From assembly GCA_027306915.1 (NCBI GenBank), contig DAHUYW010000033.1, positions 1 to 47,692 of the forward strand: a DNA stretch of 47,692 nt, in the 5' to 3' direction. The DNA is from Spirochaetales bacterium. GTDB lineage: Bacteria > Spirochaetota > Spirochaetia > DAHUYW01. Below the pieces are notes generated by a model. That model saw only the letters and a list, made by a program, of their open reading frames with translations, did not search any database and had not been told where the DNA came from. Both the position numbers and the translations under genes were made by a program. Positions 3,060 through 35,468 of this stretch are shown piece by piece. Within the stretch, counting starts at the first letter, position 1. Each line of letters begins with the position of its first letter.

Positions 3060-4331
3060 TCATACCGGCATCTCCGTGCCCTTGCCCGCCATGCGGTACA
3101 CCTGGGCGAGGATTATCGCCATCGCCTCGTAGTATTGCTCGGGGATGACGTCGCCAATCTCGACCTCCTCGTACAGCGCGCGCGCGAGGGGCCTATTTTC
3201 AATTATCGGTATATTGTTCGCCTCGGCGACCTCTCGGATGCGAAAGGCAATCAGGTCGGCGCCTTTGGCAACCATCATCGGCGCCGGCATTCGCTCGCGC
3301 TTCCACTCCATCGCCACCGCAAAGTGAGTCGGGTTGGTTATCACCACGTCCGCGCGCGGAACGTTCTGGATCATGTTGCGAGTCAGAAGCTCGCGCATCC
3401 GCTCCCTGAGTCGGCTGCGCACGCGCGGGTCTCCCTCCTGTTGCCTGCGCTCTTCCTTGACCTCCTGCTTGGTCATTTTCAAAGACTCGATGTGCAGCCG
3501 CCGCTGGAACATGTAGTCCGGAAGCGCGAGGACAAGCAAGGCGAGGGCGCTCTCCACCAGGATACGGAAGGCGATATTCGTGATGGTCGTGAGGCCCAGA
3601 AGAAAGGGCGTGTTGAGCAGGTGCGCGAGCTTCGGAAAGTCGCCGGCGATGTTGAGATAGGCGATCGCCCCGACGATCGCCACCTTCACAACCGACTTCG
3701 CAAGATTGAAGAGAGCCTCCCCCGAGAAGAAAGAGCGGCGCAAGAAGCGTCCCAGCCGCGGGGCAACCCGCGTGACGTCCGGGGTAATGGGCTTCGTGCT
3801 GAAGAGAAAGCCGACCTGCAGGACGTTGCCCATGATTGCGGCGATGAACGCGACAACGGCGACAGGAAAGGTCAGCTTGGCGAAATACGAGAGAAAAGTA
3901 GGAAAGAGCGTTGCATCGGACGTAACGTCGATCTTCGTGGAAGCGGTGAAGTAGTAGCGCAACATCTCGATCATGGTTTGCACGGTATAGGGTCCAAGGA
4001 GCGCAAGGGCGATGATCGGAAAGAGGATAACGAGCGCGCTCGGGAGCTCCGATGACTTCGCAACCTTCCCCTCCTCGCGCGCCTTGCGGATCTTCTGCTC
4101 GGTCGGCTCCTCGGTCCGCCCCTCGTCCTCCGCAGCGAACCACTGCAGATCGATGAAAAAGCGGGAGGATGCTCCCTCCCCGAGGTGCTCCACTGCGCGT
4201 CCGCCGGCCGCCGCGCGGCACTCGACCGCGGGCCTCGCCGACTGGGCGAAACCCGGCACCGAGCAGCCGATCCGATCGATGACGGCAAGCTCGCCGTCGC
4301 AAGCCTCTCGAAGCGGGTCGCCCGCGCTCAC
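3060..4331 (-). CDS. flhB: Flagellar export switch protein FlhB, with N-terminal extension
   Basis: FlhB is the membrane export component that switches substrate specificity from hook to filament proteins. The autocleavage motif NPTH is present (VVITNPTHFAVAMEW), and four hydrophobic segments precede the soluble C-terminal domain. The frame opens with GTG overlapping the fliR stop (GTGA), which suggests translational coupling. This gives a 423-residue protein, longer than the roughly 355-380 usual for the family. About 57 residues, Ala/Gly-rich with three cysteines, precede the conserved start region FIDLQWFAAEDEGRTEEPT. No ATG or well-placed SD lies between the GTG and the conserved region, so either the extension is real or a non-canonical start is used. 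Confidence 0.95.
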   Translation of the reverse strand: MSAGDPLREACDGELAVIDRIGCSVPGFAQSARPAVECRAAAGGRAVEHLGEGASSRFFIDLQWFAAEDEGRTEEPTEQKIRKAREEGKVAKSSELPSALVILFPIIALALLGPYTVQTMIEMLRYYFTASTKIDVTSDATLFPTFLSYFAKLTFPVAVVAFIAAIMGNVLQVGFLFSTKPITPDVTRVAPRLGRFLRRSFFSGEALFNLAKSVVKVAIVGAIAYLNIAGDFPKLAHLLNTPFLLGLTTITNIAFRILVESALALLVLALPDYMFQRRLHIESLKMTKQEVKEERRQQEGDPRVRSRLRERMRELLTRNMIQNVPRADVVITNPTHFAVAMEWKRERMPAPMMVAKGADLIAFRIREVAEANNIPIIENRPLARALYEEVEIGDVIPEQYYEAMAIILAQVYRMAGKGTEMPV

Positions 4332-7074: not shown

Positions 7075-8208
7075 CTACATATCGGCTACCCGATCCATCG
7101 GGGAGACAATCTCGGTCACGCGAACCCCGAAGTTCTCGTCGATTACTACAACCTCTCCCTTTGCGATGAGCTTGTGGTTGACCAAGATATCGACGGGCTC
7201 GCCAGCGAGCTTGTCGAGCTCGATGATCGTGCCCTCTCCCATGCCCAAGATGTCCCGGATGAGCTTCTTCGTGCGCCCAAGCTCCACGGTCATCTCCATG
7301 TACACGTCCATGAGAAGACCGATGTTGCCCTGGTCCCCGGGGGTTGCGACCCCGCTCAAGCTCGGAAACTGCACCGGCTGGACGCTCGCCTGCTGCATGA
7401 TCGGGCTGCCTCCCTGGGGCGCGCCGTAGGTCGGTGGAGCGGCATAGGGGGACGCCTGGGGTGCATATCCCGGCTGCGGGGCATAGCCTCCCCCCGCAGG
7501 GGCTGCCTTTCGCTGCGCGGCTGCACGCTGGCCGGGCGCCGCCTGCCCCGCCCCCGCCGGCTTCATCATCGAAACCACCTGAGCCGCAGTCGGCGCGCCG
7601 AACAGCTCGATGATCTCCGCAGGAGCCTCCCCTTCCACGCTCACCGGGTAGGTGACCGCGACAAGGTAGTCCTCGGCCAGGCTCACGTCGTCGCGCCCGA
7701 CAAGGTGCGTCTCGCCCGCGGTAGTCGAAACCGATCCCCCGAGCCGATCGCTCAGCTCGGTGACGGTCGACCCCGCCATCGTGTTTCCGGCCTCCTCGAG
7801 CGCAGAGAGCGCGGCCTCATTCAGGTCGACACCATCCTGCCCCATCATGAGCCCAGCCACCATGGTTGCAGTCTGCGGCGAGAGGACGTAGGAATGCTCT
7901 CCCGCGGCCACTCCTGAGAAATCGATCCGAATCTCGACCACTTCGGCCGGAAGTTTTCCGACGAGATCCGCCCGCGATATCAGCTCCGCCTGAGGGGCTT
8001 CAACCTTCACTCCCTTGCCGAGCATTCCCGAAAGATTCGATCCCTGGGACGCGGTGAGCCCTGCGAGGAGGCTTGCGAAGCTCTGCACCTCCTTCGGGGA
8101 AAGAGGAGCTGCCTCCTGCGGAGCGGCGGAAGGCGCGCCGAAATCCATGCCGCCACCACCCTGAAGCAGTGCATCAATCTCGTCTTGGGACAGTGAACCG
8201 TCACTCAT
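7075..8208 (-). CDS. fliY: Flagellar motor switch protein FliY (FliN with CheC-like region)
   Basis: FliY is the spirochaete/Bacillus form of FliN in the cytoplasmic C ring, joining a switch domain to a CheC-like CheY-P phosphatase region. The N-terminal peptide SQDEIDALLQ matches the CheY-P-binding peptide of FliM/FliY. The middle part (about residues 30-200) holds one CheC-type site (ExxN in ALEEAGNTMAGS); I could not see the second site found in Bacillus FliY. A Pro/Ala/Gly/Gln-rich linker (about residues 205-275) precedes the C-terminal SpoA domain (MDVYMEMTVELGRTKKLIRD to the end). Length is 377 residues. It starts 3 nt after fliM. Confidence 0.95.
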   Translation of the reverse strand: MSDGSLSQDEIDALLQGGGGMDFGAPSAAPQEAAPLSPKEVQSFASLLAGLTASQGSNLSGMLGKGVKVEAPQAELISRADLVGKLPAEVVEIRIDFSGVAAGEHSYVLSPQTATMVAGLMMGQDGVDLNEAALSALEEAGNTMAGSTVTELSDRLGGSVSTTAGETHLVGRDDVSLAEDYLVAVTYPVSVEGEAPAEIIELFGAPTAAQVVSMMKPAGAGQAAPGQRAAAQRKAAPAGGGYAPQPGYAPQASPYAAPPTYGAPQGGSPIMQQASVQPVQFPSLSGVATPGDQGNIGLLMDVYMEMTVELGRTKKLIRDILGMGEGTIIELDKLAGEPVDILVNHKLIAKGEVVVIDENFGVRVTEIVSPMDRVADM

Positions 8209-8211
8209 CTC

Positions 8212-9237
8212 CTACTCCTCTCCTTCGGCCGCGAGCTCTTCGAATTCCTCTTTGCTTACATCTTCGAGCTTTCGCACAATCTGCACCGCTATCTTGTTGC
8301 CAACGACGCCGGGGCGGCAGAGAAACTTCTCGCGATTACCCACCTTCAGGACCATCGCGTCGCCGACCCTGACGTTCGGCAGGCGAATAACGTCTCCGTT
8401 GCGCAGAAGGAGAACCTCCCGCACCGTGAGATTCATGCTTCCCACCTCGGCGACGACAGGAACATCGATGGTCGAGATTCGATCCTTCAGGATATTGAGG
8501 TTCTCCGTAGTCGCGCCGCTGCGAACCGACGAATACATGTACTGAGCCGACAGCTTCGAGATGATCGGCTCGATCGTCAGGTAGGGAATGCAGAAGTTCA
8601 TCATCCCCTCGACCTCCCCGACCTTCGTCTCGAGGGTTACGAGCACGACCATCTCGGTTGGAGGTACGATCTGAGCGAACTGAGGATTGGTCTCGATCTG
8701 TCCGAGACGCGGCCGCAGATCGATGACCTGGCTCCAGGCCTCTCGGAGATTGCCGAGGATTCGCACGATGATCCCTTCCATCACCGATTGCTCGATGTCG
8801 GAAAGGTCCCGCGAAACCTTCGCCCCCTCGCCCTTACCGCCGAAAAGGCGGTCGATGATCGTGAAGGTTACCGCCGGATCGATCTCGAGGACGGATGAAC
8901 CCTTCAGCGGGTCCATGTTGATGATGCCGAGGGTAGTGGGGTTGGGGATCGAGCGAATGAACTCTTCGTAGGTAAGCTGGTCGACGGAGGCGACGTGAAC
9001 GTGGACCATGCTGCGCAGCTGCGCCGAGAGGGCGGTCGTCGTCAACCGCGCGAAGGTTTCGTGCATGATGGAGACCGTTCGGATCTGCTCTTTGGAGAAC
9101 TTGTCAGGCCGCTTGAAGTCGTAGATCTTGATCTTGCGCTGATCTGCTGCCTGGCTGACCTCCTCAGTTTCTATGTCGCCCGTCGAAATCGCGGTCAAGA
9201 GCTGGTCGATCTCGTCCTGCGACAGTACCTCGTTCAT
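8212..9237 (-). CDS. fliM: Flagellar motor switch protein FliM
   Basis: FliM is the C-ring protein that binds CheY-P and, with FliG and FliY, controls rotation direction. The 341-residue product has the N-terminal CheY-P-binding peptide (VLSQDEIDQLL), a CheC-like middle domain with the FliG-contact loop GGKGEG, and a C-terminal SpoA domain (ISTIDVPVVAEVGSMNLTVRE). The ATG follows a good SD (GAGGGGGAAG). It lies between fliL and fliY, the conserved spirochaete order. Confidence 0.98.
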   Translation of the reverse strand: MNEVLSQDEIDQLLTAISTGDIETEEVSQAADQRKIKIYDFKRPDKFSKEQIRTVSIMHETFARLTTTALSAQLRSMVHVHVASVDQLTYEEFIRSIPNPTTLGIINMDPLKGSSVLEIDPAVTFTIIDRLFGGKGEGAKVSRDLSDIEQSVMEGIIVRILGNLREAWSQVIDLRPRLGQIETNPQFAQIVPPTEMVVLVTLETKVGEVEGMMNFCIPYLTIEPIISKLSAQYMYSSVRSGATTENLNILKDRISTIDVPVVAEVGSMNLTVREVLLLRNGDVIRLPNVRVGDAMVLKVGNREKFLCRPGVVGNKIAVQIVRKLEDVSKEEFEELAAEGEE

Positions 9238-9808: not shown

Positions 9809-9833
9809 GTCACGCTCCCACGTCCCTACCTAA

Positions 9834-9863
9834 AATTTACCAAACTTCGTACAGTTGTGTAAA
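9834..9863 (-). promoter_or_regulatory. Candidate sigma-70 promoter ahead of fliL
   Basis: On the minus strand TTTACA and TAAATT are separated by 18 nt, in an AT-richer patch of the 95-nt flbD-fliL gap. It would start transcription shortly before fliL. The box matches are 5/6 and 4/6; there is no supporting evidence beyond sequence and place. Confidence 0.35.
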
Positions 9864-9903
9864 CCCCTTCCTGTACCGTCGGCTGTCGGGCGAGTGAAAG
9901 AAC

Positions 9904-10101
9904 CTACTCTTCATTCTTGAAGGCGCCTATCATTCGGCGGTACTCTACGATCCGGTTAAAAACAGACTGGTCGTCCTCGAGGACTACCAGTCGCTTGCCT
10001 GAGAGCATGATCAAGGTCGTGTCAGGGTTGGTCTCAATGTATTCAATCTGATGCGGGTTCACATAGAAGACCTTCCCGTCAAGACGCGTTACTTGGATCA
10101 T
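9904..10101 (-). CDS. flbD: Flagellar protein FlbD
   Basis: This is a 65-residue protein of the FlbD family, small proteins found between flgE and motA in spirochaetes and some Firmicutes and linked to motility. It begins MIQVTRLDGKVFYVNPHQIE, the typical family opening, and has the conserved IETNPDTTLIMLSGKRLVV stretch. It lies 11 nt after flgE. Its biochemical role is not known to me. The next gene is fliL rather than motA. Confidence 0.93.
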   Translation of the reverse strand: MIQVTRLDGKVFYVNPHQIEYIETNPDTTLIMLSGKRLVVLEDDQSVFNRIVEYRRMIGAFKNEE

Positions 10102-10112
10102 TCACCTTCCTG

Positions 10113-11501
10113 CTACCTCTTCAAGGTCAGGATGTCCTGCAGCATCTGGTCGGAAGTCTGGATCGTCTTCGTGTTTGCCTCGAAGCCGCGCTGCGTAACG
10201 ATCATGTCGGCGAACTCTTGCGCGAGGTCGACGTTACTCATCTCAAGCGCTCCGGCAATAATTTTGCCCTTCCCGGCGACGCCGCTTTGGGTAACATTCG
10301 GATCACCCGAGTTGTTTGTCACCACGTAGGTGCTCTCACCGGCCTTCTCCAAACCGCCCGGATTCGTGAAGCTTGCGAGGGCTATCTGCCCGAGCAGCCG
10401 GGTCGTTCCGTTCGTATAGACGCCCGTTATGTCACCCTGCTGGTCAATCCGGAACCCTTCCATGTAGCCCATCGGATAGCCGTTCTGCTTGAAGGCCTTC
10501 GTGGAGCTCCGCGCGGCAAACTGCGTTATGGTGTTCACGACGCTGCCGACCTGGCCAAGGTTGAGATTGAAGGTTTGGCGGATGGGCGCACCAGCGGGTC
10601 CGGGGGTAGTTCCCGGCACGTCGAAGGAAACCGCCGCCACCAGGTTGCCGGCGTTCACGGTGTTGCCCTGGGCGTCAACAGCAGACTCAAGCGTCCCGAG
10701 ATTGCTGAAGTTGACCGTAAAGGCATTCTGAACCCCGGCCCCCGCGCCGATATTGACCGACGTAGCAGTCGGCGTCGCGGAGTTTGGATCGACGATGACC
10801 TGGGCGCGCCAGCTGTTCGGCGCGCCTGGCACACGGGTGAAGTTGATTTGCATCGTGTGCTCGTTTCCGAAGGTGTCGAAAATCGTTTTGTCCACGGTCC
10901 ATGTCCCCGCGGCGACATCGGCCGGAGAGGCTCCCGGCAGGATGTCGGGGGTGCGCTTGTCCAGATTGCACGCGAGGTCAACCTCGCTGGTTGCGGCCGC
11001 GGGATCCTTCCCTCCGACCGGAATCACGAGATCGCCGGGCTCGGAAGAGGGATTGACGAAGGTGCGCCCGGCGACGGTCTGGGCGGACCACCCTTGAACC
11101 CTCATTCCGTCGGCCGGATTGACGAGAGTTCCGTTCTCGTCGAGCCCGAAGTCCCCGGCCCGCGTGTAGAAGGTGCGGTTGCCGTCCTTGAGGACGAAAA
11201 AGCCGTTGCCTTCGATCGCAAGGTCGTCCATCTTGCCGGTCGTCTCGAGCGATCCCTGGGTGAAGATGGTGTCGATCGAGGCGATCTGCATCCCCAGGCC
11301 GACCTGCTGCGGATTTACCCCCCCAAGCTCCTGCGTGGGGGAGGCGGCTCCTTGCATTGTCTGGGAGAGCATGTCTTCGAAATTCACTCTGCCTTTCTTG
11401 AAGCCGACGGTGTTGACATTCGAGATGTTGTTTCCGATGACATCCATCCTCGTCTGATGGTTCTCAAGTCCGGAAACTCCCGAATAGAGCGCTCGCATCA
11501 T
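10113..11501 (-). CDS. flgE: Flagellar hook protein FlgE with lysinoalanine cross-link residues
   Basis: FlgE polymerises into the hook that joins the motor to the filament. The 462-residue product opens MMRALYSGVSGLENHQTRMD and ends with the family C-terminal helix (EFADMIVTQRGFEANTKTIQ). In spirochaetes hook subunits are covalently linked by lysinoalanine, formed in Treponema denticola between Lys165 and Cys178. Counting from the first Met, this protein has Lys at 165 (VGGKDPA) and Cys at 178 (DLACNLDKR), the same numbers and spacing. The ATG-ATG start follows GGAGGG by 9 nt. It is followed by flbD and preceded by flgD. Confidence 0.98.
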   Translation of the reverse strand: MMRALYSGVSGLENHQTRMDVIGNNISNVNTVGFKKGRVNFEDMLSQTMQGAASPTQELGGVNPQQVGLGMQIASIDTIFTQGSLETTGKMDDLAIEGNGFFVLKDGNRTFYTRAGDFGLDENGTLVNPADGMRVQGWSAQTVAGRTFVNPSSEPGDLVIPVGGKDPAAATSEVDLACNLDKRTPDILPGASPADVAAGTWTVDKTIFDTFGNEHTMQINFTRVPGAPNSWRAQVIVDPNSATPTATSVNIGAGAGVQNAFTVNFSNLGTLESAVDAQGNTVNAGNLVAAVSFDVPGTTPGPAGAPIRQTFNLNLGQVGSVVNTITQFAARSSTKAFKQNGYPMGYMEGFRIDQQGDITGVYTNGTTRLLGQIALASFTNPGGLEKAGESTYVVTNNSGDPNVTQSGVAGKGKIIAGALEMSNVDLAQEFADMIVTQRGFEANTKTIQTSDQMLQDILTLKR

Positions 11502-11516
11502 AGAACTACGCCCTCC

Positions 11517-11957
11517 TTATTCCAGGACCTTCGAAAGTTGCGAATAGTCGTAGTAGCTCCCGTCCACGAGAAGCTGCGGAAAGTCCTGCCCGCTCACTGC
11601 CTCGACGACTCCCTTCACGACCTTAGTGCCCTCGGTGACCTCGACCTTCTTGCCCAACAGGTTGACTGCCTGATTCAGCTGCAGGAGGTTCTTCAGCTTC
11701 CCGAACTCGGCGCTCATGTTCGTCATTTGCTCCAGGGTCGAGAATTGCGCCATCTGCGCGATGAACTCCCGGTCGTTCATCGGCGCGGTTGGGTCTTGAT
11801 GAGTGAGCTGCATGATGAGGAGCTTGAGGAAGTCTTCCTTCCCCAAGGTTCCGTGCGGTTTCTTCGTGGCGGTCTGCCCGAGGGCGGAATTGAGGCTTTC
11901 TACCTCGGCCTTTGTCTTGGCAAGATCCGCTGCGGAGAGGTTCATCGAGAAGTTCAT
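11517..11957 (-). CDS. flgD: Hook cap assembly protein FlgD
   Basis: FlgD caps the growing hook and helps FlgE polymerise; it is exported and later discarded. The 146-residue product has the signature LGKEDFLKLLIMQLTHQDP followed by MNDREFIAQMAQFSTLEQM. The protein ends shortly after a small beta domain and lacks the long C-terminal FLG/Fn3-like region of enteric FlgD, as is common in spirochaetes. The SD GGAGG precedes the ATG. It sits between fliK and flgE. Confidence 0.96.
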   Translation of the reverse strand: MNFSMNLSAADLAKTKAEVESLNSALGQTATKKPHGTLGKEDFLKLLIMQLTHQDPTAPMNDREFIAQMAQFSTLEQMTNMSAEFGKLKNLLQLNQAVNLLGKKVEVTEGTKVVKGVVEAVSGQDFPQLLVDGSYYDYSQLSKVLE

Positions 11958-11975: not shown

Positions 11976-13583
11976 CTACACGACAAGATTAACAAGCGAC
12001 TCTCCCCTCCCGATCACTTGAAGGTCGGGAATGTGATCTGCGAGGCTCTTAAGCCCCGAGATTGCCTCCGCGCCGGGAAGGCCTGAATACCGTCCCTTCT
12101 CCCGAGTCCCCGTGCCGTTTCCGCCGACGCTTACGTTGAGGGCCCCTGTCGAGAAGCCGCTTTCCTGGAAGGCTCGGTACAGCGACTCGAGATTCTGTTG
12201 AAAGAGCTGTCGCACGCTCTGATTTTCGACGACAATCTTCCCGCTTATGAGACTATCCTTCATCTCGAGCTGGATCCGAACGCTCCCGAGATGCTCGGGT
12301 TTGAGGACCAGCCGAATCTCCCCGCTCTCATTGTCCCGCATCACGATGCCGGCGCTTTTCACAACCTGATTCATGAGCGGGCCCCAGCTCTGCTGGAGGG
12401 TGTTCACCGCATCCTGCCGGGAAGGGAGGATGAGTGAATCGTTTCGGACGAAGGAATCGGGAGCTGCCCTCCCCCCGGTGTCGATCCCAAACAAACGGAC
12501 CTCGAAGCTCTGATGTTTGGGCTCGCCTCCGCCGGGCTGCAGCCCGGAATCCGGAGACTGGGGGACGACATCGTGACGGGCTGCGCCGCGGAGGTCGATC
12601 ACGGTAAGCTGAGGCGATGTCGTGCTCTTCGCCACGCCCTGGCCGGCTTGAATGCCGTCGTTCCGCTTTGCGCCCGATTCTCCCGCTTCCTTCTTCCCCG
12701 GCCCGGCGCCTTCTGCGGCGGAAGCCGCCTTGTCGGTCTTCACAAGCTGCCCTGCAAGGAGCGCGGCTGTGAGCGCTTCGGCGCCATCGCCTTTCTTCGG
12801 CCGCTTCTCGGTGACGCCGGCCGCGGGCTTTTGCTCCGCTCCTTCGATGGCGATTTTCGGCTGAGCGCCCGCTCGGATCGCCACGGCTGCTTTCGCAGCA
12901 GCAGCCGCCTTCTCGTGCGCGAGGATCGCAGCGGGGTCGGTGCCGACCTCGGCCCCCTTGATCTTGGCCTTCTTCGAAGAGAGGGCGTCCTTCGAAGAAG
13001 CGTCCGACGCTGCCGCTCCCGGCGAGCGCTCCGCGAGCTTGGTCTCTTCTTCCGGGGGCGAGCGTTTTGCCGTTCCCTCGTCCTCGCTCTTGGCGGGGTG
13101 CGCCGAGGCAGCCTGAGCCTTGTCCGAAGCGGCCTTCTCCGATGCCGCCTCTTTCGCCGGGCCGTGTTCCGTCGCCGGCTGGCTTGCCTTATCGGCCTCC
13201 GCCCCGGCGTTCCTGGAACCGCTTTCCCGAGCGGGCTTTGCATCCGCATCCTTCGCGGCATTCCGGTCGGCGCTGGCGGTGGACCGAGAGGGCTCGTCGT
13301 AGGCTCGCGCCTCGATAGGGCTCCTCTCGCTTGCGAGTTGCGGGCTACGAGACGAAACGTCCCTGGCGCGATCCAACACCGCGCCGAAATCCCGCTGCGG
13401 CTCTGGCATGCGTGACCGAGTGGGCGGCCCATCGAGCATCTGCACCGGCGAGAGATCGCGCTGCACCGGTAGATTGGTCACTCTGCCTCCACGCCCGCGA
13501 GCTTGCGGGCCATTGCGCGAGATCGCGCTTTTGTCGTCCGCGGACACTAGCGCGAGATCGCGCTCGATTCGGTCGCGCCGCAA
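11976..13583 (-). CDS. fliK: Flagellar hook-length control protein FliK
   Basis: FliK measures hook length and triggers the FlhB substrate switch. The 535-residue product has a long low-complexity N-terminal and middle region (about residues 50-340), rich in Ala, Lys, Glu, Ser and Pro. The C-terminal hook domain contains SGEIRLVLKPEHLGSVRIQL and IVVENQSVRQLFQQNLESL. I accept the TTG start because GGAGG lies 5 nt upstream. The frame sits between flbB and flgD, where spirochaetes encode FliK. The N-terminal coding region contains short repeated DNA motifs described among the findings. Confidence 0.93.
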   Translation of the reverse strand: MRRDRIERDLALVSADDKSAISRNGPQARGRGGRVTNLPVQRDLSPVQMLDGPPTRSRMPEPQRDFGAVLDRARDVSSRSPQLASERSPIEARAYDEPSRSTASADRNAAKDADAKPARESGSRNAGAEADKASQPATEHGPAKEAASEKAASDKAQAASAHPAKSEDEGTAKRSPPEEETKLAERSPGAAASDASSKDALSSKKAKIKGAEVGTDPAAILAHEKAAAAAKAAVAIRAGAQPKIAIEGAEQKPAAGVTEKRPKKGDGAEALTAALLAGQLVKTDKAASAAEGAGPGKKEAGESGAKRNDGIQAGQGVAKSTTSPQLTVIDLRGAARHDVVPQSPDSGLQPGGGEPKHQSFEVRLFGIDTGGRAAPDSFVRNDSLILPSRQDAVNTLQQSWGPLMNQVVKSAGIVMRDNESGEIRLVLKPEHLGSVRIQLEMKDSLISGKIVVENQSVRQLFQQNLESLYRAFQESGFSTGALNVSVGGNGTGTREKGRYSGLPGAEAISGLKSLADHIPDLQVIGRGESLVNLVV

Positions 13584-21242: not shown

Positions 21243-22637
21243 CTAAAGGATGAACCTGCTCAGGTCTTGGTTCTGGACCACATCCTTCAGCCGTTCGTCA
21301 ACATATCCCTCCGTTATCGTTATGGTTTGTCCCTTCAAGTCAGGCGCGTTGAAGGAGATATCCTCCAGAAGCAGCTCCATGATCGTGTGCAGCCGCCTGG
21401 CGCCGATATTCTCCGACCGAGCGTTGACCTCCGCCGCAATCTCCGAAAGCCGCCGCGTGGCCTCTTGCGTGAAAACGAGACCGACTCCTTCGGTCTCGAG
21501 GAGCGCGGTGTACTGGGTGGTCAGGGCGTTCTGGGGTTGCGTCAGGATCTTCTCGAAGTCTTTGCTGGTGAGATCCGTCAGCTCTACCCGCAGGGGAAAG
21601 CGGCCCTGAAGCTCCGGGATGAGGTCCGATGGCTTGGTCATATGAAAAGCGCCCGCTGCTATGAAGAGAATGTGCCCAGTGTCCACCATCCCGTACTTGG
21701 TGTTCACCTTGCTTCCCTCGACGATCGGGAGGATGTCCCGCTGGACACCTTCGCGCGAGACATCGGGCCCGCCCGCCGTGCGCCCCTCTTTCGAGGCAAT
21801 CTTGTCGATTTCGTCCACGAAGACGATCCCCATCTCCTCGACCCGCTCGCGGGCAAGCTCCGAAACCCGATCGCTATCGATGAGCTTGTCCATCTCCTCG
21901 GCGAGGATAATCTCCCGCGCCTGGCGGACCGTTACCCGTTTCTTCTTCTTCCGTCCACCCCCGAGCATGTTGGTGATGTTGCCAAGGTTGACATCCATCT
22001 CTTCGAAGCTGGTTCCCGAAAAGATCTCGATCGACGGAAAAGCGCTCTTCGTGACGTTGACCTCGACCAACTTCTCTTCGAGCAGCCCGGCGCGCAGGCG
22101 TTGGCGGAACTTCTCCCTGGTATCCGAGCTCGCGCTCGACCCGACGGCGGGCTGGACGAAGCCTGCCGTCACGTCCTTTGCCTCGCTTGGATCGGAGGTC
22201 TGCTCACCGATCCCCGGCAGAAGAAGGTCTAGAAGCTGATCCTCGGTCCGACGCTCCGCCTCTTCGCGCACCCCCTCCGAAAGCTCCGCCTTCACGAGCG
22301 AGACCCCGACCGACATGAGGTCCCTGATCATAGACTCGACGTCGCGCCCGACATAGCCTACCTCGGTGTACTTCGTCGCCTCCACCTTGATGAAAGGCGC
22401 GCCCGAGAGCTTCGCCAGCCGCCTGGCGATCTCGGTCTTGCCGACACCGGTCGGCCCGATCATGATGATATTCTTCGGGGCTATCTCGTCGCGCATCTCC
22501 TTCGGAAGCTTTTGGCGCCTGGTGCGGTTTCGAAGCGCGATGGCGACCGCTTTTTTTGCCCGGCTCTGCCCGATGATATACTTGTCCAGCTCGGCCACAA
22601 TCTCCTTGGGCGTGAGCTTATCAAGGTCCGGTTTCAT
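21243..22637 (-). CDS. hslU: ATP-dependent protease ATPase subunit HslU (ClpY)
   Basis: HslU is the AAA+ unfoldase of the HslUV protease. The 464-residue product has Walker A ([12 protein letters not shown]) near residues 61-72, the pore-loop context ([14 protein letters not shown], with the GYVG loop), an intermediate domain (about 110-235), Walker B ([11 protein letters not shown]) and a C-terminal end LSRFIL, the tail that docks into HslV to activate it. The start overlaps the hslV stop by 4 nt (ATGA). Confidence 0.98.
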
Positions 22638-23176
22638 GGAAGCTCCTCAACTACAACATTCTGGTTGGTATAGATGCAGATGTCCGCTGCAATCTTGATC
22701 GACCGGAGCGCGATCTCCCGCGCGGTGAGCTCCGCTCCCGTGTCGAGATAGGCGAGCGCTGCGGCAGAGGCGAAACTCCCTCCGGAGCCGATCGCAAGCA
22801 CGCCCCCGTCGGGCTCAATGACGTCGCCGGTGCCGGAGATGAGGAGCATGCGGCCCACGTCGGCGACAAGGAGCATCGCTTCGAGACGGCGAAGGATTCG
22901 ATCGGTACGCCAATCTTTGGCAAGCTCTACCGCAGCCCGCGTGATGTCCCCGCCGTACTCCTTCACCTTGCCCTCGAAGCGCTCGAACAGGGTAAAGGCG
23001 TCGGCGGTTGCGCCGGCGAAGCCGACAACGATCTTTCCGTCGTATATCTTGCGGACCTTGCGCGCGTTTCCTTTCATCACCGTGTTCCCGAGCGTGACCT
23101 GCCCGTCGCCGGCCATGGCTATCGATTCTCCCTTCTTCACGGCCACCACCGTGGTCCCTTCAAACGTCGTCACCAT
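22634..23176 (-). CDS. hslV: ATP-dependent protease peptidase subunit HslV (ClpQ)
   Basis: HslV is the proteasome-beta-like threonine peptidase of HslUV. I choose the ATG giving [15 protein letters not shown], because it restores the usual 180-residue length; the frame is open upstream only through xerC. Removal of a short propeptide would expose Thr8 as the N-terminal nucleophile. Other family marks are [20 protein letters not shown] and the [13 protein letters not shown] segment. The start overlaps xerC by 17 nt. Confidence 0.97.
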
Positions 23177-24137
23177 TGCTCTCCTTCGATTCCGTTGTGC
23201 CCCTCTCGGCTCGGCGAGCCCCACCAATACCCTGGTATGCTCCTCCGTGCGGGTGTGCCTTTGCGTAGACTGCCTTGAGCCGCTCGATCCCGACGTGGGT
23301 ATATACCTGGGTCGTCGAGAGGTTCGAATGGCCGAGCATCTCCTGAACCGCCCGGATGTCGGCTCCGCGGTTGAGGAGATGCGTGGCGAAGCTGTGGCGG
23401 AAGGTATGCGGGCCGACCCGCGCGGGCAACGCGCCCGATGCACCCTGCCGTTCCCGTTCCGTGAGCTGCGCGATAAGGAAGAAGACGCCCCGCGCCGTGA
23501 GGCGATGCCCGCGGGCGCTCAAGAGCAGGGCTCTCACGGCATCATCGTTCTCACTGTCGACCCGCGCTTCCCGCAAGGGAAGATAGCCGGATAGGGCTTC
23601 CCGTGCCTTCGAGCCGATGTAAACAATTCGCTCTTTGTTTCCCTTCCCGCGAACCTTGACGCTCCCCTCCACCCTGCTCACGTCCTTCAGGTTGATCCCC
23701 ACGAGCTCCGAGACCCGGCATCCCGTGCTGTAGAGAAGCTCCACAACGAGGCGATTGCGCACGGAGCCGAAATCTCCGGTTCCATCCTGAAGATAGAGCT
23801 CCACCTCACCTTCAGTGAGCACGGTCGGAAGGACAGCCGGCTCTTTCTGACTGCGGATTCCCGCCGCGGGATTCACGCTCACGCGGCCCTTGCGCACGAG
23901 GAAGCGGTAAAACCCCTTCAGCGTGGACAGGGCACGATTGACCGATGCGGGGGCGAGCCGGTCGCGCGTCAATCGCGCAACGAAGTGGCGCACCGCAGTC
24001 CGGTCGACGGCAACCGGATCAAGCCCCTCCTGCTTGAGGAAGTCCATGAAGCGTTCCAGATCGTGGCGATACGAGGCGAGCGTTGCCGGTGAAAGCCCGC
24101 GGACACCCTTGAGGTAGCCAAGGTACTCTTCAGTCAC
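23160..24137 (-). CDS. xerC: Tyrosine recombinase XerC
   Basis: XerC-type recombinases resolve chromosome dimers at dif together with XerD. I choose the GTG start ([14 protein letters not shown]), overlapping the topA stop by 8 nt and preceded by GGAGGAGG. The result is 325 residues. The SAM-like N-terminal DNA-binding domain covers about residues 1-90; catalytic residues are Arg141, Lys165, His244, Arg247, His270 and Tyr279. A tail of about 30 residues after the usual end, rich in Gly, Glu and Ser, overlaps the hslV start. Position ahead of hslVU matches the codV-clpQ-clpY arrangement of Bacillus. Confidence 0.93.
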
Positions 24138-26244
24138 CGGCGTCCTCCTCCCCGTCTTCCTGTGAATGCAGGAAGGTGCAATCGGGATTGATGCATGCCT
24201 TGTAGTTTCCGCGCTTCTTGTCGGCCTTCTCGACAAGGAACCAGCCGCACCCCGGGCACTTCGATGAGGTGGGCTTGTAGTGGGTGATGAAATCGCAGGT
24301 CGGATAGTTCGTGCAGCCGTAAAACTCTTTCCCCCTTCCGCCCTGCTTCCGCCGCGCAACAATCTGACCTCCGCATCCGGGACGCGGGCAATCGGCGAGA
24401 GGAATCGATTTGGTGTTCATGCACTCGGGAAAGCCCGAACAGGCGAGAAAGAACCCGTAGCGCCCCAGCTTCTTCACCATGGGCCGCCCGCATTTTTCAC
24501 ACTTGAAATCAGTCTGCTCGTCGAGCACCCCCTTGATCGACTCAAGGGTGTCCATGACGTGGTCGACCTTGTGCTTGAAAGGGCCGTAGAACTCCCGGAT
24601 CATCCGGTGCCACTCTTCCTTGTTCTCTTCGACCTCGTCGAGACGCTTTTCCATGTCGGCGGTAAAATGGACCTCGACGATATCGGGAAAGGAATCGGTT
24701 AGAATCTCACTGATGATCCTGCCGAGGGTCGTCGGCTGGAGCTGCTTGTTCTTGCGCACCACGTAGTAGCGGTCGAGGAGGACCGAGATAATCGGGGCGT
24801 AGGTCGAAGGCCTTCCGATCCCCAGCTCCTCAAGGGTTTTCACGATGCTCGCGTCGGTGTAGCGTGCGGGCCCAGTCGTGAAGTGCTGCTCAGGGAGAAA
24901 TCTCAAGAATTCCAGACTCTCCCCCTCCGCCATCGCCGGAAGCCGTTTCGTGCCATCCTCCTCCTTGCTCTTGAGCACCTTCAACACCTTCTGATAGCCC
25001 GGCACAGCCGTCGAGGTCGCGTTTGCGCGAAAGAGAGCGTCGCCCGCCGCGATGTCAATGGAAAGGGTCTTGGTAACCGCCGGCGTCATTTGCGAGGACA
25101 CGAACCGCTCCCAGATTATCGAATAAAGGCGAAGCTGGTCTTTCGAGAGATACTCCTTGACGGCCGCAGGGGTGTAGCTGACGTAGGTGGGACGAATCGC
25201 TTCGTGTGCGTCCTGGGCGCCCTTGCCGACCGCATAGAAGTTCGGGGCCTCAGGAAGCTCCTTTGGGTACTCCTTGGCAAGGAATTCCCTCACCTCATGG
25301 ATTGCCTGGTTGGAGATTCGAGTCGAGTCGGTTCGCATGTAGGTGATGAGCCCGATCCGATTCTGTCCGATGTTGACGCCCTCGTAGAGCTGCTGGGCTA
25401 TCTGCATGGTCTTCTTCGACGTGAAGCCGAGACGGTTGGCCGCAGTCTGCTGCAGGGTCGAGGTGGTAAAGGGTGGGCGAGGGCGAAGGTTCTTTTCGCT
25501 TTCCTTGACGGCCTTGACGACGAAGCTCTTCCCGGTCAGAGCCGTGATGATCCGCATCGCCGCCGCCTCATTCGGAATGCTAAGCTTCTCCTCTCCATAC
25601 TTGACGATCGAAGCGGTGAATGCGGCCTTGCCCTTCTTGAGCTCGACGTCGAGCGACCAGTACTCCTCAGGGATGAAGCTCTCGACCTCTTTCTCGCGCT
25701 CGCAGATCAGGCGCAGAGCGACCGACTGCACCCTTCCCGCCGAAAGCCCGTTCTTCACCTTCTTCCAGAGCAGCGGCGAAAGGTTGTAACCCACGAGCCG
25801 GTCGAGCACTCGTCGCGCCTTCTGCGCGTTGACCTTCGTGTTGTCGATGTCCATCGGATTCTCGACCGCTTTGCGAATGGCGTCCGGGGTGATCTCATTG
25901 AAGACGATCCGACCGATCCGGAGGTTCGGATTCTTCTTCAGCATCGCGTTTCTGATATGGTAGGAAATGGCCTCTCCCTCGCGATCGTTATCAGAAGCGA
26001 GGAGGACGTTGCCGGTCTTGTTGGCTTTCGTCTGGAGCTCTTTGAGAATCTTGGCTTTCCCTCGAACGGTGATGTACTCGGGCTCAAAGCCATTGTCGAC
26101 GTCGACGGCCACCCGCGACTTCGGCAAGTCGATGAGATGTCCCATCGAGGCCGCTACCGTGTAGCCCGAACCGAGGTATCGCTCGATTGTTTTCGCCTTT
26201 GCCGGCGACTCTACCACCAAAAGTGTATGCGGTTTGTCAGCCAT
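24130..26244 (-). CDS. topA: DNA topoisomerase I
   Basis: TopA relaxes negative supercoils through a 5'-phosphotyrosine intermediate. The 704-residue product has the Toprim start LLVVESPAKAKTI and DNDREGEAIS motifs, the active-site Tyr302 in ITYMRTDSTRIS, and C-terminal zinc ribbons beginning CEKCGRP, CPRPGCGG and CPGCGW. The tail is acidic (EEDAGD). It begins 1 nt after dprA and ends inside the xerC start, suggesting a co-transcribed dprA-topA-xerC-hslV-hslU unit. Confidence 0.98.
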   Translation of the reverse strand: MADKPHTLLVVESPAKAKTIERYLGSGYTVAASMGHLIDLPKSRVAVDVDNGFEPEYITVRGKAKILKELQTKANKTGNVLLASDNDREGEAISYHIRNAMLKKNPNLRIGRIVFNEITPDAIRKAVENPMDIDNTKVNAQKARRVLDRLVGYNLSPLLWKKVKNGLSAGRVQSVALRLICEREKEVESFIPEEYWSLDVELKKGKAAFTASIVKYGEEKLSIPNEAAAMRIITALTGKSFVVKAVKESEKNLRPRPPFTTSTLQQTAANRLGFTSKKTMQIAQQLYEGVNIGQNRIGLITYMRTDSTRISNQAIHEVREFLAKEYPKELPEAPNFYAVGKGAQDAHEAIRPTYVSYTPAAVKEYLSKDQLRLYSIIWERFVSSQMTPAVTKTLSIDIAAGDALFRANATSTAVPGYQKVLKVLKSKEEDGTKRLPAMAEGESLEFLRFLPEQHFTTGPARYTDASIVKTLEELGIGRPSTYAPIISVLLDRYYVVRKNKQLQPTTLGRIISEILTDSFPDIVEVHFTADMEKRLDEVEENKEEWHRMIREFYGPFKHKVDHVMDTLESIKGVLDEQTDFKCEKCGRPMVKKLGRYGFFLACSGFPECMNTKSIPLADCPRPGCGGQIVARRKQGGRGKEFYGCTNYPTCDFITHYKPTSSKCPGCGWFLVEKADKKRGNYKACINPDCTFLHSQEDGEEDAGD

Positions 26245-26245
26245 A

Positions 26246-27253
26246 TCAGATTCTCCTGAAGTATTCCCCCTGATGTCGCACCAGCTTCCCCGCCAACTCG
26301 TCTGCGAGCAACTGTGCCATCGCCGCAGCGCTTTCTTCCGGCTCGCTCACCCTCCGCATATCCCTCATCCTTTCGATCCCCCAATCGGCCAGGAGATCGG
26401 CGGCTCCGGTGATCGTCGGCGCTCCCTCTGCAGCGAGGCGGCGGGCGCCTTCCCCCGCTGCTCCCGCGAGTCCCTCGCTATGGACAAAAAGGTCGCGTCC
26501 CTGCTCGAGAGCATAGTCGGCCGTTATGAGGGCGCCGGATCGCTCGGGGGCTTCAACCACGACCACTCCGCGGGCAAGCCCGGCAAGGATACGATTGCGC
26601 TCCGGGAAATGGTAGCGCAAGGCCGCGGCTCCTGGAGGATATTCGCTGATGATGGCCCCTCCTGTCTGCAGGATCCTCAAGGCGAGCTCGCGGTTGATGC
26701 TCGGATACACGAAATCGATCCCGCATCCGAGAACCGCGACGGTCTTACCGCCCCCCGCGATATTGCCGTCATGGGCAGCCCCGTCGATTCCCCGCGCCAG
26801 GCCCGAGACGACTCCGATCCCCTCCGCCCCGAGCTCGAAACCGAGGCTATAGGAAGCCTGTCGGCCTCTTCCCGTCGGGCTTCGTGTGCCAACCACCCCG
26901 GCGAGTGGCTTCTCGTAGTCCGGAAGAACGCCACGGTAGAAAAGAAGGAAAGGAGGGTCGAAAATCTCCCGGAGCTGGGGAGGATAGGAGCTGTCCCGAT
27001 AAAAGGTGTATGCAATTCCCTTCCTGGTCAAGATATTTCGGTCATGCTCAGCTGCCTCGAGAAGCTCGGCGGGCGCAAAGCTTTCCGCGCGCAGCCTTCG
27101 CTGAACTATTTCCTCGATGTCGGTAAGCGTGAGCGAGAGAAAGAGAGCTTCCGTGTCGATGAGATCGAGAAGCAGGAGCTTCTCCGGAGTCTTGAGAAAC
27201 CCGGCGCGTGCGATTGCCAACAGCATCTCAGATTGTGCCATTGCCGTTCTCAT
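26246..27253 (-). CDS. dprA: DNA processing protein DprA (Smf)
   Basis: DprA loads RecA on incoming single-stranded DNA during natural transformation. The 335-residue product has an N-terminal helical region, a Rossmann-like core with GVVGTRSPTGRGRQASY, SGLARGIDGAAH, TVAVLGCGID and FPERNRILAGLA, and a short C-terminal winged-helix-like part. The ATG has no strong SD; a second ATG four codons later is possible. The presence of DprA does not by itself show competence. Confidence 0.95.
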   Translation of the reverse strand: MRTAMAQSEMLLAIARAGFLKTPEKLLLLDLIDTEALFLSLTLTDIEEIVQRRLRAESFAPAELLEAAEHDRNILTRKGIAYTFYRDSSYPPQLREIFDPPFLLFYRGVLPDYEKPLAGVVGTRSPTGRGRQASYSLGFELGAEGIGVVSGLARGIDGAAHDGNIAGGGKTVAVLGCGIDFVYPSINRELALRILQTGGAIISEYPPGAAALRYHFPERNRILAGLARGVVVVEAPERSGALITADYALEQGRDLFVHSEGLAGAAGEGARRLAAEGAPTITGAADLLADWGIERMRDMRRVSEPEESAAAMAQLLADELAGKLVRHQGEYFRRI

Positions 27254-27287
27254 ACTCGCGGAATCGGACAGTCACTTCATTTCTTCC

Positions 27288-28175
27288 TCATGCCCTCGGA
27301 TGAAAGGTCCGATGGTACCGCTTCAGGTCTTCGCGGTCCAGATGGGTGTAAACCTGGGTGGTGCTGATGTCCGCGTGTCCCAGGAGCTCTTGGACCGTGC
27401 GAAGATCCGCTCCCCCTTGAAGGAGATGGGTCGCAAAGGAATGGCGGAGCGTGTGCACCTTCGCCTCCAGTCCGGCGCGGGCCGCTGTCTCTTTGAAGCG
27501 CTTCCAAATACCCTTCCGGGAGAGCCCAGCGCCGTTCCGCCCGACGAAGAGGCGGTCGGTCATGCGGCGACTCGAGAGAAGAGCCGGGCGACCGAGCTTG
27601 AGATAGGCGTCGAGCCACCTTAGCGCCACATCTCCCAGGGGGATGAACCTCTCCTTGCTGCCCTTGCCTACGACGCGAATCACCCCGTCGGAGCGCGCCA
27701 GGTTGGCCATGGTGAGCTCCACCGCCTCGGAAACCCGCAGACCGCAGGAATAGATGAGCTCGAAGAGCGCCCGGTCCCGCAGCCCGAGCGGCGTGTCATA
27801 GGGAATAGCCGCAAGGAAAACATCCACGTCATCAGCCGAAAGAACCTCAGGGATCCGCCGCGGGAGCTTCGGCGTCTCTACGATCTCCGATGGGTTGTCT
27901 TTGCGCACGCCCTCGACAACGAGGAATCCCTGGAAGGAGCGAATCGCGCTCAACGCCTTCGATATTGTTCGTTGATCGACTCGCTCCCTCCGCTCGCTCA
28001 AGTAGGCAATGATGTCTTCGGTCGAGGCGCCCTCGCCTTCGACGCCGTTCGCCTCGAGAAACTCGAGGTAGGCCGCCGTCTCCCGGAGATAGGTTTCGAC
28101 GCTCATGGCGGCGAGGCGGAGCTCGACGCGGAGATAGTCGCCGTAACGCTCAAGGATTCTTCGTCTGACCATCAT
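27288..28175 (-). CDS. xerD: Tyrosine recombinase XerD
   Basis: This is the second Xer-type recombinase of the window, the likely partner of the upstream-annotated XerC at dif. The 295-residue length is standard. The core-binding domain spans about residues 1-100; catalytic residues are Arg147, Lys171, His241, Arg244, His267 and Tyr276. It begins 3 nt after ftsZ, which ties dimer resolution to the division genes. I name it XerD by length and its neighbours; XerC and XerD names could be swapped. Confidence 0.92.
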   Translation of the reverse strand: MMVRRRILERYGDYLRVELRLAAMSVETYLRETAAYLEFLEANGVEGEGASTEDIIAYLSERRERVDQRTISKALSAIRSFQGFLVVEGVRKDNPSEIVETPKLPRRIPEVLSADDVDVFLAAIPYDTPLGLRDRALFELIYSCGLRVSEAVELTMANLARSDGVIRVVGKGSKERFIPLGDVALRWLDAYLKLGRPALLSSRRMTDRLFVGRNGAGLSRKGIWKRFKETAARAGLEAKVHTLRHSFATHLLQGGADLRTVQELLGHADISTTQVYTHLDREDLKRYHRTFHPRA

Positions 28176-28178
28176 GCC

Positions 28179-29345
28179 TTACTCATCGAGCTGGCCCACC
28201 GGCTTGTCCCGGAGCACGGTCGGAATCCCCAAGTCCGCCTCCGGGGAGTTGCGTCCGAGAAGGTAATCCCGCGGCGCTCGCGAAACGATCCCCTCGCGCA
28301 TCTTCAGCCATTCGTCGTAGCGGATGGTCTCGCTCTTGGCGGAGCTCACCGGCTCCTCGGCATGCTTCATGCCCTTCTTTCGGTCTTGCGAGAAGCCGGT
28401 CGCGATCACAGTGACCTTCACCTCGTCGTCGAGGGAGGCATCGATGGTGCTCCCCGGGATGATGAGGGCGTCGGAGTCGGAATTCGCCGTGATGATCTTC
28501 ACGACCTCTTCGTATTCGGTGAGCGCAAAGTTCTCTCCGCCCGTCACGTTGACCAGAATTCCCTTCGCTCCCTCGATGTGCGCATCCTCGAGGAGCGGGT
28601 TGTTGATCGCGTTCGTCGCTGCATCGACCGCACGATTGTCGCCCCTGCCCACACCGATGCCCATGAGGGCGTCGCCCTGTCCCTTCATGATGGTCCGCAC
28701 GTCGGCGAAATCGATGTTGATCTCCCCCGGGACGGTGATCAGGTCCGAGATCCCTGCGACCCCTTGGCGCAGCACGTCGTCCGCCATGAGGAAGGCCTCG
28801 CGAATGGGGGTCCGCCGTTCCACGATCTTGAGTAGATACTGATTGGGGATGATGATGAGGGTGTCGACCGTTTCCCGAAGGCGAGCGATCCCCTCCTCGG
28901 CAAGCTGCATCTTGCGGCGACCCTCGAAGTCGAAGGGCTTGGTGACCACCGCAACGGTAAGCGCGTCCATCTCGCGGGCGATGCGCGCCACCACGGGTGC
29001 GGCTCCGGTCCCCGTGCCGCCGCCCATGCCGGCGGTGATGAAGACCATGTCCGCGCCTTTCAGGATCTCCTTGATCTGCTCCTGGTCCTCCAGTGCCGCT
29101 TTTTCCCCGATCTCGGGGATCCCGCCCGCGCCCAGTCCTCCCGTCAGCTTGGAGCCAAGCGGAAGCTTGGTTTCCGCATGGGAAAGCTTGAGTGCCTGGA
29201 GGTCGGTGTTGGCCCCGACGAACTGGACGTTCCTGAGTCCGCTCGCGATCATGCGGTTTACCGCATTGCTGCCGCCGCCGCCGACACCGATGACCTTGAT
29301 GATCGTCGGATCCGCCGTATTGCCGTCTAAAACTTCTATCCGCAT
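28179..29345 (-). CDS. ftsZ: Cell division protein FtsZ
   Basis: FtsZ is the tubulin-like GTPase that forms the division ring. The 388-residue product has the glycine-rich start [18 protein letters not shown], the tubulin signature GGGTGTG at residues 108-114 and the T7 loop NIDFAD. After a linker of about 50 residues the C-terminal peptide reads [12 protein letters not shown], the site that binds FtsA. The ATG follows the SD GGGAGGGGG. It lies 75 nt after ftsA, the largest gap in the division block. Confidence 0.99.
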
Positions 29346-29358
29346 TGCCCCCTCCCAG

Positions 29359-29371
29359 AGCTTTCAAAGCT
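29359..29371. other. Inverted repeat in the ftsZ leader
   Basis: AGCTTTCAAAGCT is a perfect 6-1-6 inverted repeat located just upstream of the ftsZ ribosome binding site. It could be an operator or a small hairpin that affects translation. A GTACGTACGT motif lies about 20 nt further upstream. I know of no regulator that binds this sequence. Confidence 0.3.
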
Positions 29372-29420
29372 TTTCGAAATCACTCGGTATGTACGTACGT
29401 CCGCTTTTTCTCGCTGCGAT

Positions 29421-30656
29421 CTAGAAGAACTCCTTCATCCAATCCTTCAGCTTCACGATGAAGCCGTCGGCCGTGCGCTTGGTCGGTCCCAGCTCGTAGC
29501 GCTCCGCTGCCGCCGAAGCCGCCCCGTAGAGTACCAGGCCGACCGCTGTCGCAAAGATCGGGCTCTGGTACTCCGAGGCGAGCCCCCCTACCTTGGCCGG
29601 ATATCCGACCCGCGCGGGAAGCCCGAAGACCTCCTGGGCCAGCTCGGCCGTTCCGGCGAGAAGGGAGCCTCCCCCGGTGAGCACGATCCCTCCTCCGAGC
29701 ATCCCGAGATAGCTCTTCTTCTGCAGCTGCTCCTTGACCAGGTTGAATATCTCGGTCATGCGCGGCTGGACAATTCGGCAGATCTCCTTGCGGGGAATCG
29801 CCTGCGCGGGCCAGTTGCCGACACCGGGAATGACGACCTCCTCATCCGACTCCACCAGCGGCATGTAGCAGCACCCCGACTCCTTCTTTATCCGCTCTGC
29901 GGCATCCTGCGGGGTCTTCAGCATTATTGCGAGGTCGCTCGTAACCTGATTCCCTCCTACCGCAATCACAGTCGTGTGATAGGGCGCCCCCTCGAGATGA
30001 ACCAGCACATCGGTGGTACCGCCGCCCAGGTCGATGAGCAGACAGCCAAGCTCCTTCTCGTCCGGCGATACCACCGCCTGCGCGCTCGCCAGTGATTGAA
30101 GGACAATGTCGTTTACCCGGAAGCCGGCTCGATTCACGCACTTGAGCAGATTCTGCGCCGAGGTCACCGAGCCCGTGATGATATGCACCTCGGCCTCCAG
30201 GCGAATGCCGATCATGTCGATCGGATCCTTGACGCCGCCCTGGTCGTCGACGATGAACTCCTGCGGAATCACATGGAGCACCTCGCGGTCCATCGGGATA
30301 ACGACCGCCTTCGCGGCGTCGATGACACGATCGACATCCTCCTTGGTAATCTCGCGCCCCCGGCCGGTAACCGCCACTACGCCGCGCGAGTTGATTCCCT
30401 CGATGTGCGCCCCCGCGATGCCGGTGTAGACGCTCGTGACCTCACGGCCCGACATCATCTCCGCGGATTCGATAGCCTGGGCGACCGAGCGGAGCGTTGA
30501 TTCGATGTTGATGACCACGCCGCGCCTGAGTCCAAACGACGGGCACAGACCTACCCCCGTAATCTCGAGGGCACCCTGTTCGTTGTACTCCCCGATAACG
30601 GCGCAGACCTTGGTTGTGCCGATATCGAGCCCGACGATCAAATTGTCAGCAGGCAA
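29421..30656 (-). CDS. ftsA: Cell division protein FtsA
   Basis: FtsA is the actin-like ATPase that tethers FtsZ to the membrane. The 411-residue product has phosphate-binding loops VGLDIGTTKVCAVIG and IDLGGGTTDVLVHLEG, the SHS2-type 1C domain between them, and a C-terminal amphipathic helix (VKLKDWMKEFF) that should bind the membrane. The start is TTG, 1 nt after the ftsQ stop, with the SD GGAGGGGGG in front, so the rare start is well supported. Confidence 0.97.
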   Translation of the reverse strand: MPADNLIVGLDIGTTKVCAVIGEYNEQGALEITGVGLCPSFGLRRGVVINIESTLRSVAQAIESAEMMSGREVTSVYTGIAGAHIEGINSRGVVAVTGRGREITKEDVDRVIDAAKAVVIPMDREVLHVIPQEFIVDDQGGVKDPIDMIGIRLEAEVHIITGSVTSAQNLLKCVNRAGFRVNDIVLQSLASAQAVVSPDEKELGCLLIDLGGGTTDVLVHLEGAPYHTTVIAVGGNQVTSDLAIMLKTPQDAAERIKKESGCCYMPLVESDEEVVIPGVGNWPAQAIPRKEICRIVQPRMTEIFNLVKEQLQKKSYLGMLGGGIVLTGGGSLLAGTAELAQEVFGLPARVGYPAKVGGLASEYQSPIFATAVGLVLYGAASAAAERYELGPTKRTADGFIVKLKDWMKEFF

Positions 30657-30657
30657 G

Positions 30658-31485
30658 TCATCCCCCCTCCTTTAGCTTGTAGATGACCTGGCCGGTGCGA
30701 AAATCTAGCTCGTCAACCTTGTTGATCATCCCCTGACGCGCGGTCACCTCGAGCACCATCATAATATACGAAAGCTCACGCGCGTCTATGGTGTTGCCGA
30801 TCCGAACCCGGATGCGGTAGTCCCGAGGATAGAGGATGACGTCGAAATCGGAACCGCCCAACCGGATGAACCGAACCTCGGAGATGGCGGCAAAAAGAGC
30901 GGGCGATTGATCCTGGATCTGCTGCAGCTCGCGGAGAAATGCGACTAGCTCGCTCGGCAGTCGCATGCCGACCTGAATGGCCGGGATGGAAACCCCGGAA
31001 ATGATCGGAAGGTCGCTGCGGCCGATTGCGCTCTCGCCGACCCGGATCACCACGCCCTGGTCATCGAAGGCGACCGGGACCGACCCCGATCCCGAATCGA
31101 CAAGCGACACTGCGAAGGGCATCCGCGGCTGGAGCGATATCGAGAGACTATTCGGGAAGATCTTCCGCACCGTAGCATCCTTGACGAGCGGATAGGCAGC
31201 AAGACGTGCGCGAACTTGGGCCGCGTTGAGGGAGAAGTAGTACTCCGTCTGATCGAGCCCCGCTATCGCAAGGATCTGCGCATCCGTAAGGGGAAAACCC
31301 TGACCCGCGGTGATCTGGATTCGATCGATGACGAGCTTTGGAGCTATGAAAAAGTGAAAGGCCAACTCGAGAACCAGCACTACGGACAGCAGCCCAACTA
31401 TGAGAATCAGGAACCGATCGAGACCCGCCTTTCTCGCGAGTGTTGTCCGTTCCTGTTTGTAGTCGAGTATGGCAATGCTACTCAT
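30658..31485 (-). CDS. ftsQ: Cell division protein FtsQ/DivIB
   Basis: FtsQ/DivIB is a bitopic divisome protein that binds FtsL and FtsB. The 275-residue product has a short cytoplasmic N-terminus, one membrane helix near residues 27-52 and a POTRA-like domain starting VIDRIQITAGQGFPLTDAQI, followed by the FtsQ beta domain (VRKIFPNSLSISLQPRMPFA). It overlaps the ftsW stop by 8 nt. Sequence similarity in this family is weak, so position between ftsW and ftsA adds to the call. Confidence 0.9.
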   Translation of the reverse strand: MSSIAILDYKQERTTLARKAGLDRFLILIVGLLSVVLVLELAFHFFIAPKLVIDRIQITAGQGFPLTDAQILAIAGLDQTEYYFSLNAAQVRARLAAYPLVKDATVRKIFPNSLSISLQPRMPFAVSLVDSGSGSVPVAFDDQGVVIRVGESAIGRSDLPIISGVSIPAIQVGMRLPSELVAFLRELQQIQDQSPALFAAISEVRFIRLGGSDFDVILYPRDYRIRVRIGNTIDARELSYIMMVLEVTARQGMINKVDELDFRTGQVIYKLKEGG

Positions 31486-32656: not shown

Positions 32657-32661
32657 GTCTC

Positions 32662-35464: not shown

Positions 35465-35468
35465 CCCT

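Follow-up and report, generated by a model that had tools for sequence, protein, structure and literature searches.

A Cys-type spirochaete FlgE with the lysinoalanine cross-link residues of the Treponema denticola hook protein, and the occurrence of cysteine and serine at position 178 across Spirochaetota

The window, meaning the whole stretch of 47,692 nucleotides analysed here from a Spirochaetales bacterium (contig DAHUYW010000033.1), has a GC content of 59.6%; an earlier note made from the sequence alone called the organism a high-GC spirochaete. The minus strand of positions 10113-11501 encodes a 462-residue flagellar hook protein, FlgE, with the N-terminus MMRALYSG, whose translation begins MMRALYSGVSGLENHQTRMD. 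Frame 1 of the plus strand over the same interval was rejected, as its translation is not FlgE. The minus-strand product carries the FlgE domain architecture, with Flg_bb_rod, LlgE_F_G_D1, FlgE_D2, and Flg_bbr_C all scoring over the curated Pfam cut-offs. The earlier note had assigned this open reading frame to FlgE while naming no strand, and that identity is confirmed on the minus strand. Among the 120 listed proteins of 7999 database matches, every one with a named organism is from a spirochaete, supporting a spirochaete origin. The five best genome contigs, 63-94% identical to the window FlgE, are labelled Spirochaetes or Spirochaetales, and six further contigs, 31-52% identical, are of Desulfovibrio type or Clostridia. 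The features are as follows, with row counts referring to the 320 spirochaete FlgE rows described below.

10113..11501, minus strand: flgE, flagellar hook protein, 462 aa (translation; Pfam; solved relative 6ndx_B at E 3.4e-115)
11007..11009, minus strand: codon AAG of Lys165, in T. denticola the Michael donor of the lysinoalanine link (Lys in 320/320 covering rows)
10968..10970, minus strand: codon TGC of Cys178, in T. denticola the dehydroalanine precursor (column Cys 222, Ser 98 of 320)
10965..10967, minus strand: codon AAT of Asn179, a structural residue beside the cross-link Cys (Asn in 320/320 spirochaete rows)
10503..10505, minus strand: codon of Ser333, aligned with T. denticola Thr334 (column Thr 209, Ser 111 of 320)
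10497..10499, minus strand: codon of Lys335, aligned with T. denticola Lys336 (column restricted to Lys or Arg among the 222 Cys-type rows)
11517..11957, minus strand: flgD, hook cap, immediately upstream of flgE (Pfam FlgD, E 3e-23)
11976..13583, minus strand: fliK, hook-length control (Pfam Flg_hook, E 3.2e-18)

The flgE gene lies in a long flagellar cluster whose gene names were assigned from Pfam matches; flgD and fliK immediately precede it, and fliL, fliM, and a fliN-type gene follow downstream. The cluster also includes flhA, flhB, fliR, fliP, fliJ, fliI, fliH, fliG, fliF, and fliE, together with two rod genes resembling flgC and flgB. At 21243-36904 on the minus strand it continues into HslU/HslV-like, Xer-type recombinase, topoisomerase I, and DprA genes, and into FtsZ, FtsA, FtsQ-like, FtsW-type, MraY, Mur ligase, MraW, and MraZ genes (Pfam names), placing flagellar and cell-division genes side by side. 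The space between flgE and fliL, at 9809-10112, holds only one short open frame, presumably flbD-like. The corresponding space in L001, a 94% identical relative, is about as small (3985-4290), and locus L003 carries motA and motB between flgE and fliL (7614-9131). When the L003 proteins were used as tblastn queries (E up to 1), neither gene was found in the window or across 9981 bases of L001.

Among solved structures, phmmer found the best relative of the window FlgE to be 6ndx_B, a crystal construct of T. denticola FlgE. The alignment starts at residue 93 and runs without a gap through the cross-link site, the first gap falling after residue 283. The entry 6NDX is taken here, in line with PMC9254593, to be the T. 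denticola cross-link structure, and its chain has Ala at position 178. Over the first 102 aligned residues of 6ndx_B, locus L254 differs only in having Cys in place of Ala at 178; it starts MMRSLFSG, and its own count gives Lys165, Cys178, Asn179, Thr334, and Lys336. This count, combined with the gap-free register, therefore places the Lys and Cys of the window FlgE at the published cross-link site. The window protein has one residue fewer near 283, so that Thr334 and Lys336 of T. denticola correspond to Ser333 and Lys335. The two proteins thus share Lys165, Cys178, Asn179, and Lys336 (335 in the window) as well as the site register, and differ in the replacement of Thr334 by Ser333.

Conservation across the phylum was assessed in 392 spirochaete genomes, of which 338 gave a FlgE match at E 1e-40 or better. 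The alignment contains 320 rows covering the site, 317 of them from 315 of the 338 genomes and three from genomes outside the sample. Excluded were L012, which duplicates L001, six loci from outside the spirochaetes, the ten loci L211-L220, which are FlgG-like or fragmentary, and the fragments L071, L101, L191, and L210 from four genomes, which miss residue 178, with L191 nonetheless showing the Lys. Also left out were 19 matching genomes of 0.9 to 1.6 Mb (E from 4e-152 to 1e-148), apparently Borrelia-like. Eleven of the 54 unmatched genomes were re-searched at 1e-10, ten giving short, FlgG-/FlgF-like or fragmentary matches and one giving none.

Lys165 and Asn179 are invariant in all 320 rows, while residue 178 is Cys in 222 and Ser in 98, with no third residue (219 Cys and 96 Ser when counted over the 315 genomes). 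The columns flanking the lysine, 164 and 166, are variable. The alignment of FlgE across spirochaetes proposed in the earlier note returns a lysine in every covering row and a mixture of Cys and Ser, and its view that the trait is old in the phylum fits rows that all keep Lys plus an eliminable Cys or Ser. Cysteine is otherwise scarce: Cys178 is the sole cysteine of the window FlgE, 216 of the 222 Cys-type rows contain one in total, 92 of the 98 Ser-type rows contain none as far as the rows reach, and any column other than 178 holds at most four. The Lys336 column has Lys in 277 rows, Arg in 26, and another residue in 17. The 120 listed database proteins plus the window protein agree, with Lys in 121/121 and residue 178 as Cys in 104 and Ser in 17. 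Two genomes, G125 (L144, L341) and G207 (L202, L221), have two FlgE copies each, all of Ser type, representing either paralogues or mixed bins. The exceptionless rule of Lys plus Cys or Ser in the sampled rows and the single-cysteine fact, together with the repeated Cys/Ser exchange described below, constitute the useful increment.

The outgroup comprised 66 non-spirochaete rows: the 30 best from each of two phyla, that of a Desulfovibrio MAG (297 genomes) and that of a Clostridiales MAG (299 genomes), together with L006-L011; these were picked by likeness to the window and represent two phyla, not all bacteria. Proteins of these phyla share the hook protein family and the Asn of the NL motif, but the pair of Lys165 with Cys or Ser at 178 occurs in 0/66 rows in a local-pair MAFFT alignment, with Lys at 165 alone in three rows and Ser at 178 alone in one. 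The alignment of L008-L011 is unstable owing to long inserts, the three site columns reading K-S-D in a first MAFFT run versus A-V-N in the local-pair run for L008 and K-A-N versus S-G-N for L009, and the counts follow the local-pair run. Asn of the 179 column is kept in 66/66 outgroup rows lacking the pair and is therefore not specific to the cross-link.

FlgE lysinoalanine (Lal) cross-linking is reported as conserved across Spirochaetota in PMC10691653, which describes the mass-spectrometric identification of Lal in Treponema, Borreliella, Brachyspira, and Leptospira. Mutants of T. denticola and B. burgdorferi unable to form the link are nonmotile according to PMC10691653, PMC9254593, and PMC4032328. 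By homology to these published systems, exported FlgE subunits would oligomerise into the hook, and Cys178 of one subunit would eliminate sulfide to yield dehydroalanine. Lys165 of the adjacent subunit would then add to the dehydroalanine to form lysinoalanine, converting the hook into a covalent lysinoalanine-linked polymer that would transmit torque to the periplasmic flagella. The window FlgE is very probably (about 0.93) an ordinary Cys-type spirochaete FlgE whose hook subunits become lysinoalanine-linked, and we infer cross-linking in this organism from sequence and by analogy with its relatives. This reading draws on the gap-free register, the invariance of Lys165 and Asn179, the restriction of position 178 to Cys or Ser, the spacing of 13, the lack of the pair in all outgroup rows, the sole cysteine of nearly all Cys-type rows (216/222), the Ser and Lys at the Thr334 and Lys336 columns, the surrounding flagellar cluster, and the published biochemistry of relatives. 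Counted against it are the change of Thr334 to Ser, found in the window as in 111/320 rows, and the failure to find motA and motB in the window, which leaves the motility of this lineage unproven. Leptospira interrogans provides a second comparison: it shares the Lys at the corresponding place, with Lal demonstrated by mass spectrometry, but is of a Ser179 type with several Lal isoforms and alternative lysines according to PMC10691653, whereas the window protein is of Cys type.

The same conservation could arise in a window FlgE that does not cross-link, either through common descent or because the pair serves folding, subunit packing, or metal or disulfide chemistry. Close relatives do share most of FlgE, the listed matches including sequences more than 90% identical, and Asn179 persists in every outgroup row even where any cross-link pair is missing. 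Such an explanation is nevertheless quite improbable, as Lys165 is retained in every row over a far wider divergence while its neighbours at 164 and 166 vary, and position 178 is limited to two residues, both of which are known to form Lal in relatives (for Ser, from PMC10691653). A disulfide role in particular is hard to reconcile with a lone cysteine whose place is taken by Ser in 98 rows.

A chance agreement of residue numbers, with the Lys or Cys lying off the true site, has a negligible probability and is refuted, since phmmer and MAFFT agree in aligning the two residues gap-free with the cross-link columns, even though only 186/320 rows count 165/178. The earlier note had placed Lys165 and Cys178 by counting from the first Met, and codons AAG and TGC stand at exactly those counts; it had also named an alignment away from the T. 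denticola site as grounds for abandoning its claim, and both alignments place the residues at that site. Of the conserved numbers and spacing on which it relied, the spacing of 13 between Lys and residue 178 recurs in 320/320 rows, but identical numbers are weak evidence. Counted from the aligned start, the pair falls at 165/178 in those 186 rows, at 166/179 in 103, and at 167/180 in 22, so the argument rests on the aligned column and the constant interval of 13, and little on the absolute numbers.

A FastTree phylogeny built from 320 genome rows and 121 proteins (441 rows in total), with column 178 excluded, needs 13 Cys/Ser changes and yields eight independent Cys/Ser pairs when restricted to supported branches and 13 when all branches are used. 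On the same tree the genome rows alone need eight changes, giving four supported pairs and eight in all. An IQ-TREE 'quick' tree of 97 rows (86 genome rows and 11 proteins) under a mixture model needs 12 changes, with eight supported pairs. The totals of 12-13 changes rest on trees that include metagenomic proteins, and branch support from quick tree methods is less sure than that from a careful search. Serine codons at 178 comprise 65 TCN and 33 AGY of 98 and are mixed even within single Ser clades, which fits repeated passage through Cys; double changes would also explain it. Some proteins with about 70% identity to the window FlgE have serine at this position.

The consulted portions of PMC10691653 name the FlgE of Leptospira and Brevinema as Ser-bearing and contain no statement on repeated Cys/Ser exchange. 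No other paper on such exchange was found from titles and abstract openings in a search without most subscription journals. The balance leans slightly toward a position 178 open only to dehydroalanine precursors, at which Cys and Ser have switched on about eight or more independent occasions in the phylum, some of them among relatives of about 70% identity to the window FlgE, with Lys165 constant. If true, lysinoalanine cross-linking would be universal in flagellated Spirochaetota, a faster Cys and a slower Ser chemistry would interconvert repeatedly, and the Lys336 neighbour would be relaxed only in some Ser lineages.

Two correlates of the Ser type were considered, the first being aerobic life, as gauged by the heme-copper oxidase family PF00115, matched in 75/392 sample genomes. 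At E 1e-90 or better, a line picked after the list was seen, raw counts give a match for 47/98 Ser rows versus 9/219 Cys rows (Fisher p 7e-20), and any match for 50/98 versus 20/219. A link of the Ser type to aerobic life was rejected, as it fails once kinship is counted: the tree offers only four independent, supported Cys/Ser contrasts, of which about 0.6 on average also show a difference in the oxidase, and the association is therefore clade-bound and without support. The genome nearest to the window, G001, has a Cys-type FlgE and also gives a match to the oxidase family.

The second correlate is the Lys336 column, where a residue other than Lys or Arg occurs in 17/98 Ser-type versus 0/222 Cys-type rows. 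The exceptions are His, Ser, Glu, Tyr, or Gly, five of them being His, which may be charged. This relaxation needs five changes on the 441-row tree, where an independent-pair test is without power, and the aligned sequences are suggestive of its confinement to the Ser type. The extra lysines of Leptospira (Lys145, Lys148) form no general Ser-type mark at window columns 144 and 147, the choice of columns assuming an offset of one that is possibly wrong where gaps lie nearby.

The conservation of the cross-link and its phylum-wide inference are already published (PMC10691653), and the present locus adds a further, probably environmental, lineage to the known range of this spirochaete trait, with no covering FlgE row in the sample being without the site. 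The cross-link pair is already published for the group; the repeated swap of cysteine for serine is the only fresh point. The exchange amounts to a natural experiment that could show which of the two residues is sufficient for autocatalytic cross-linking and what the cost is, and Cys/Ser pairs from environmental species would allow this to be measured without pathogens.
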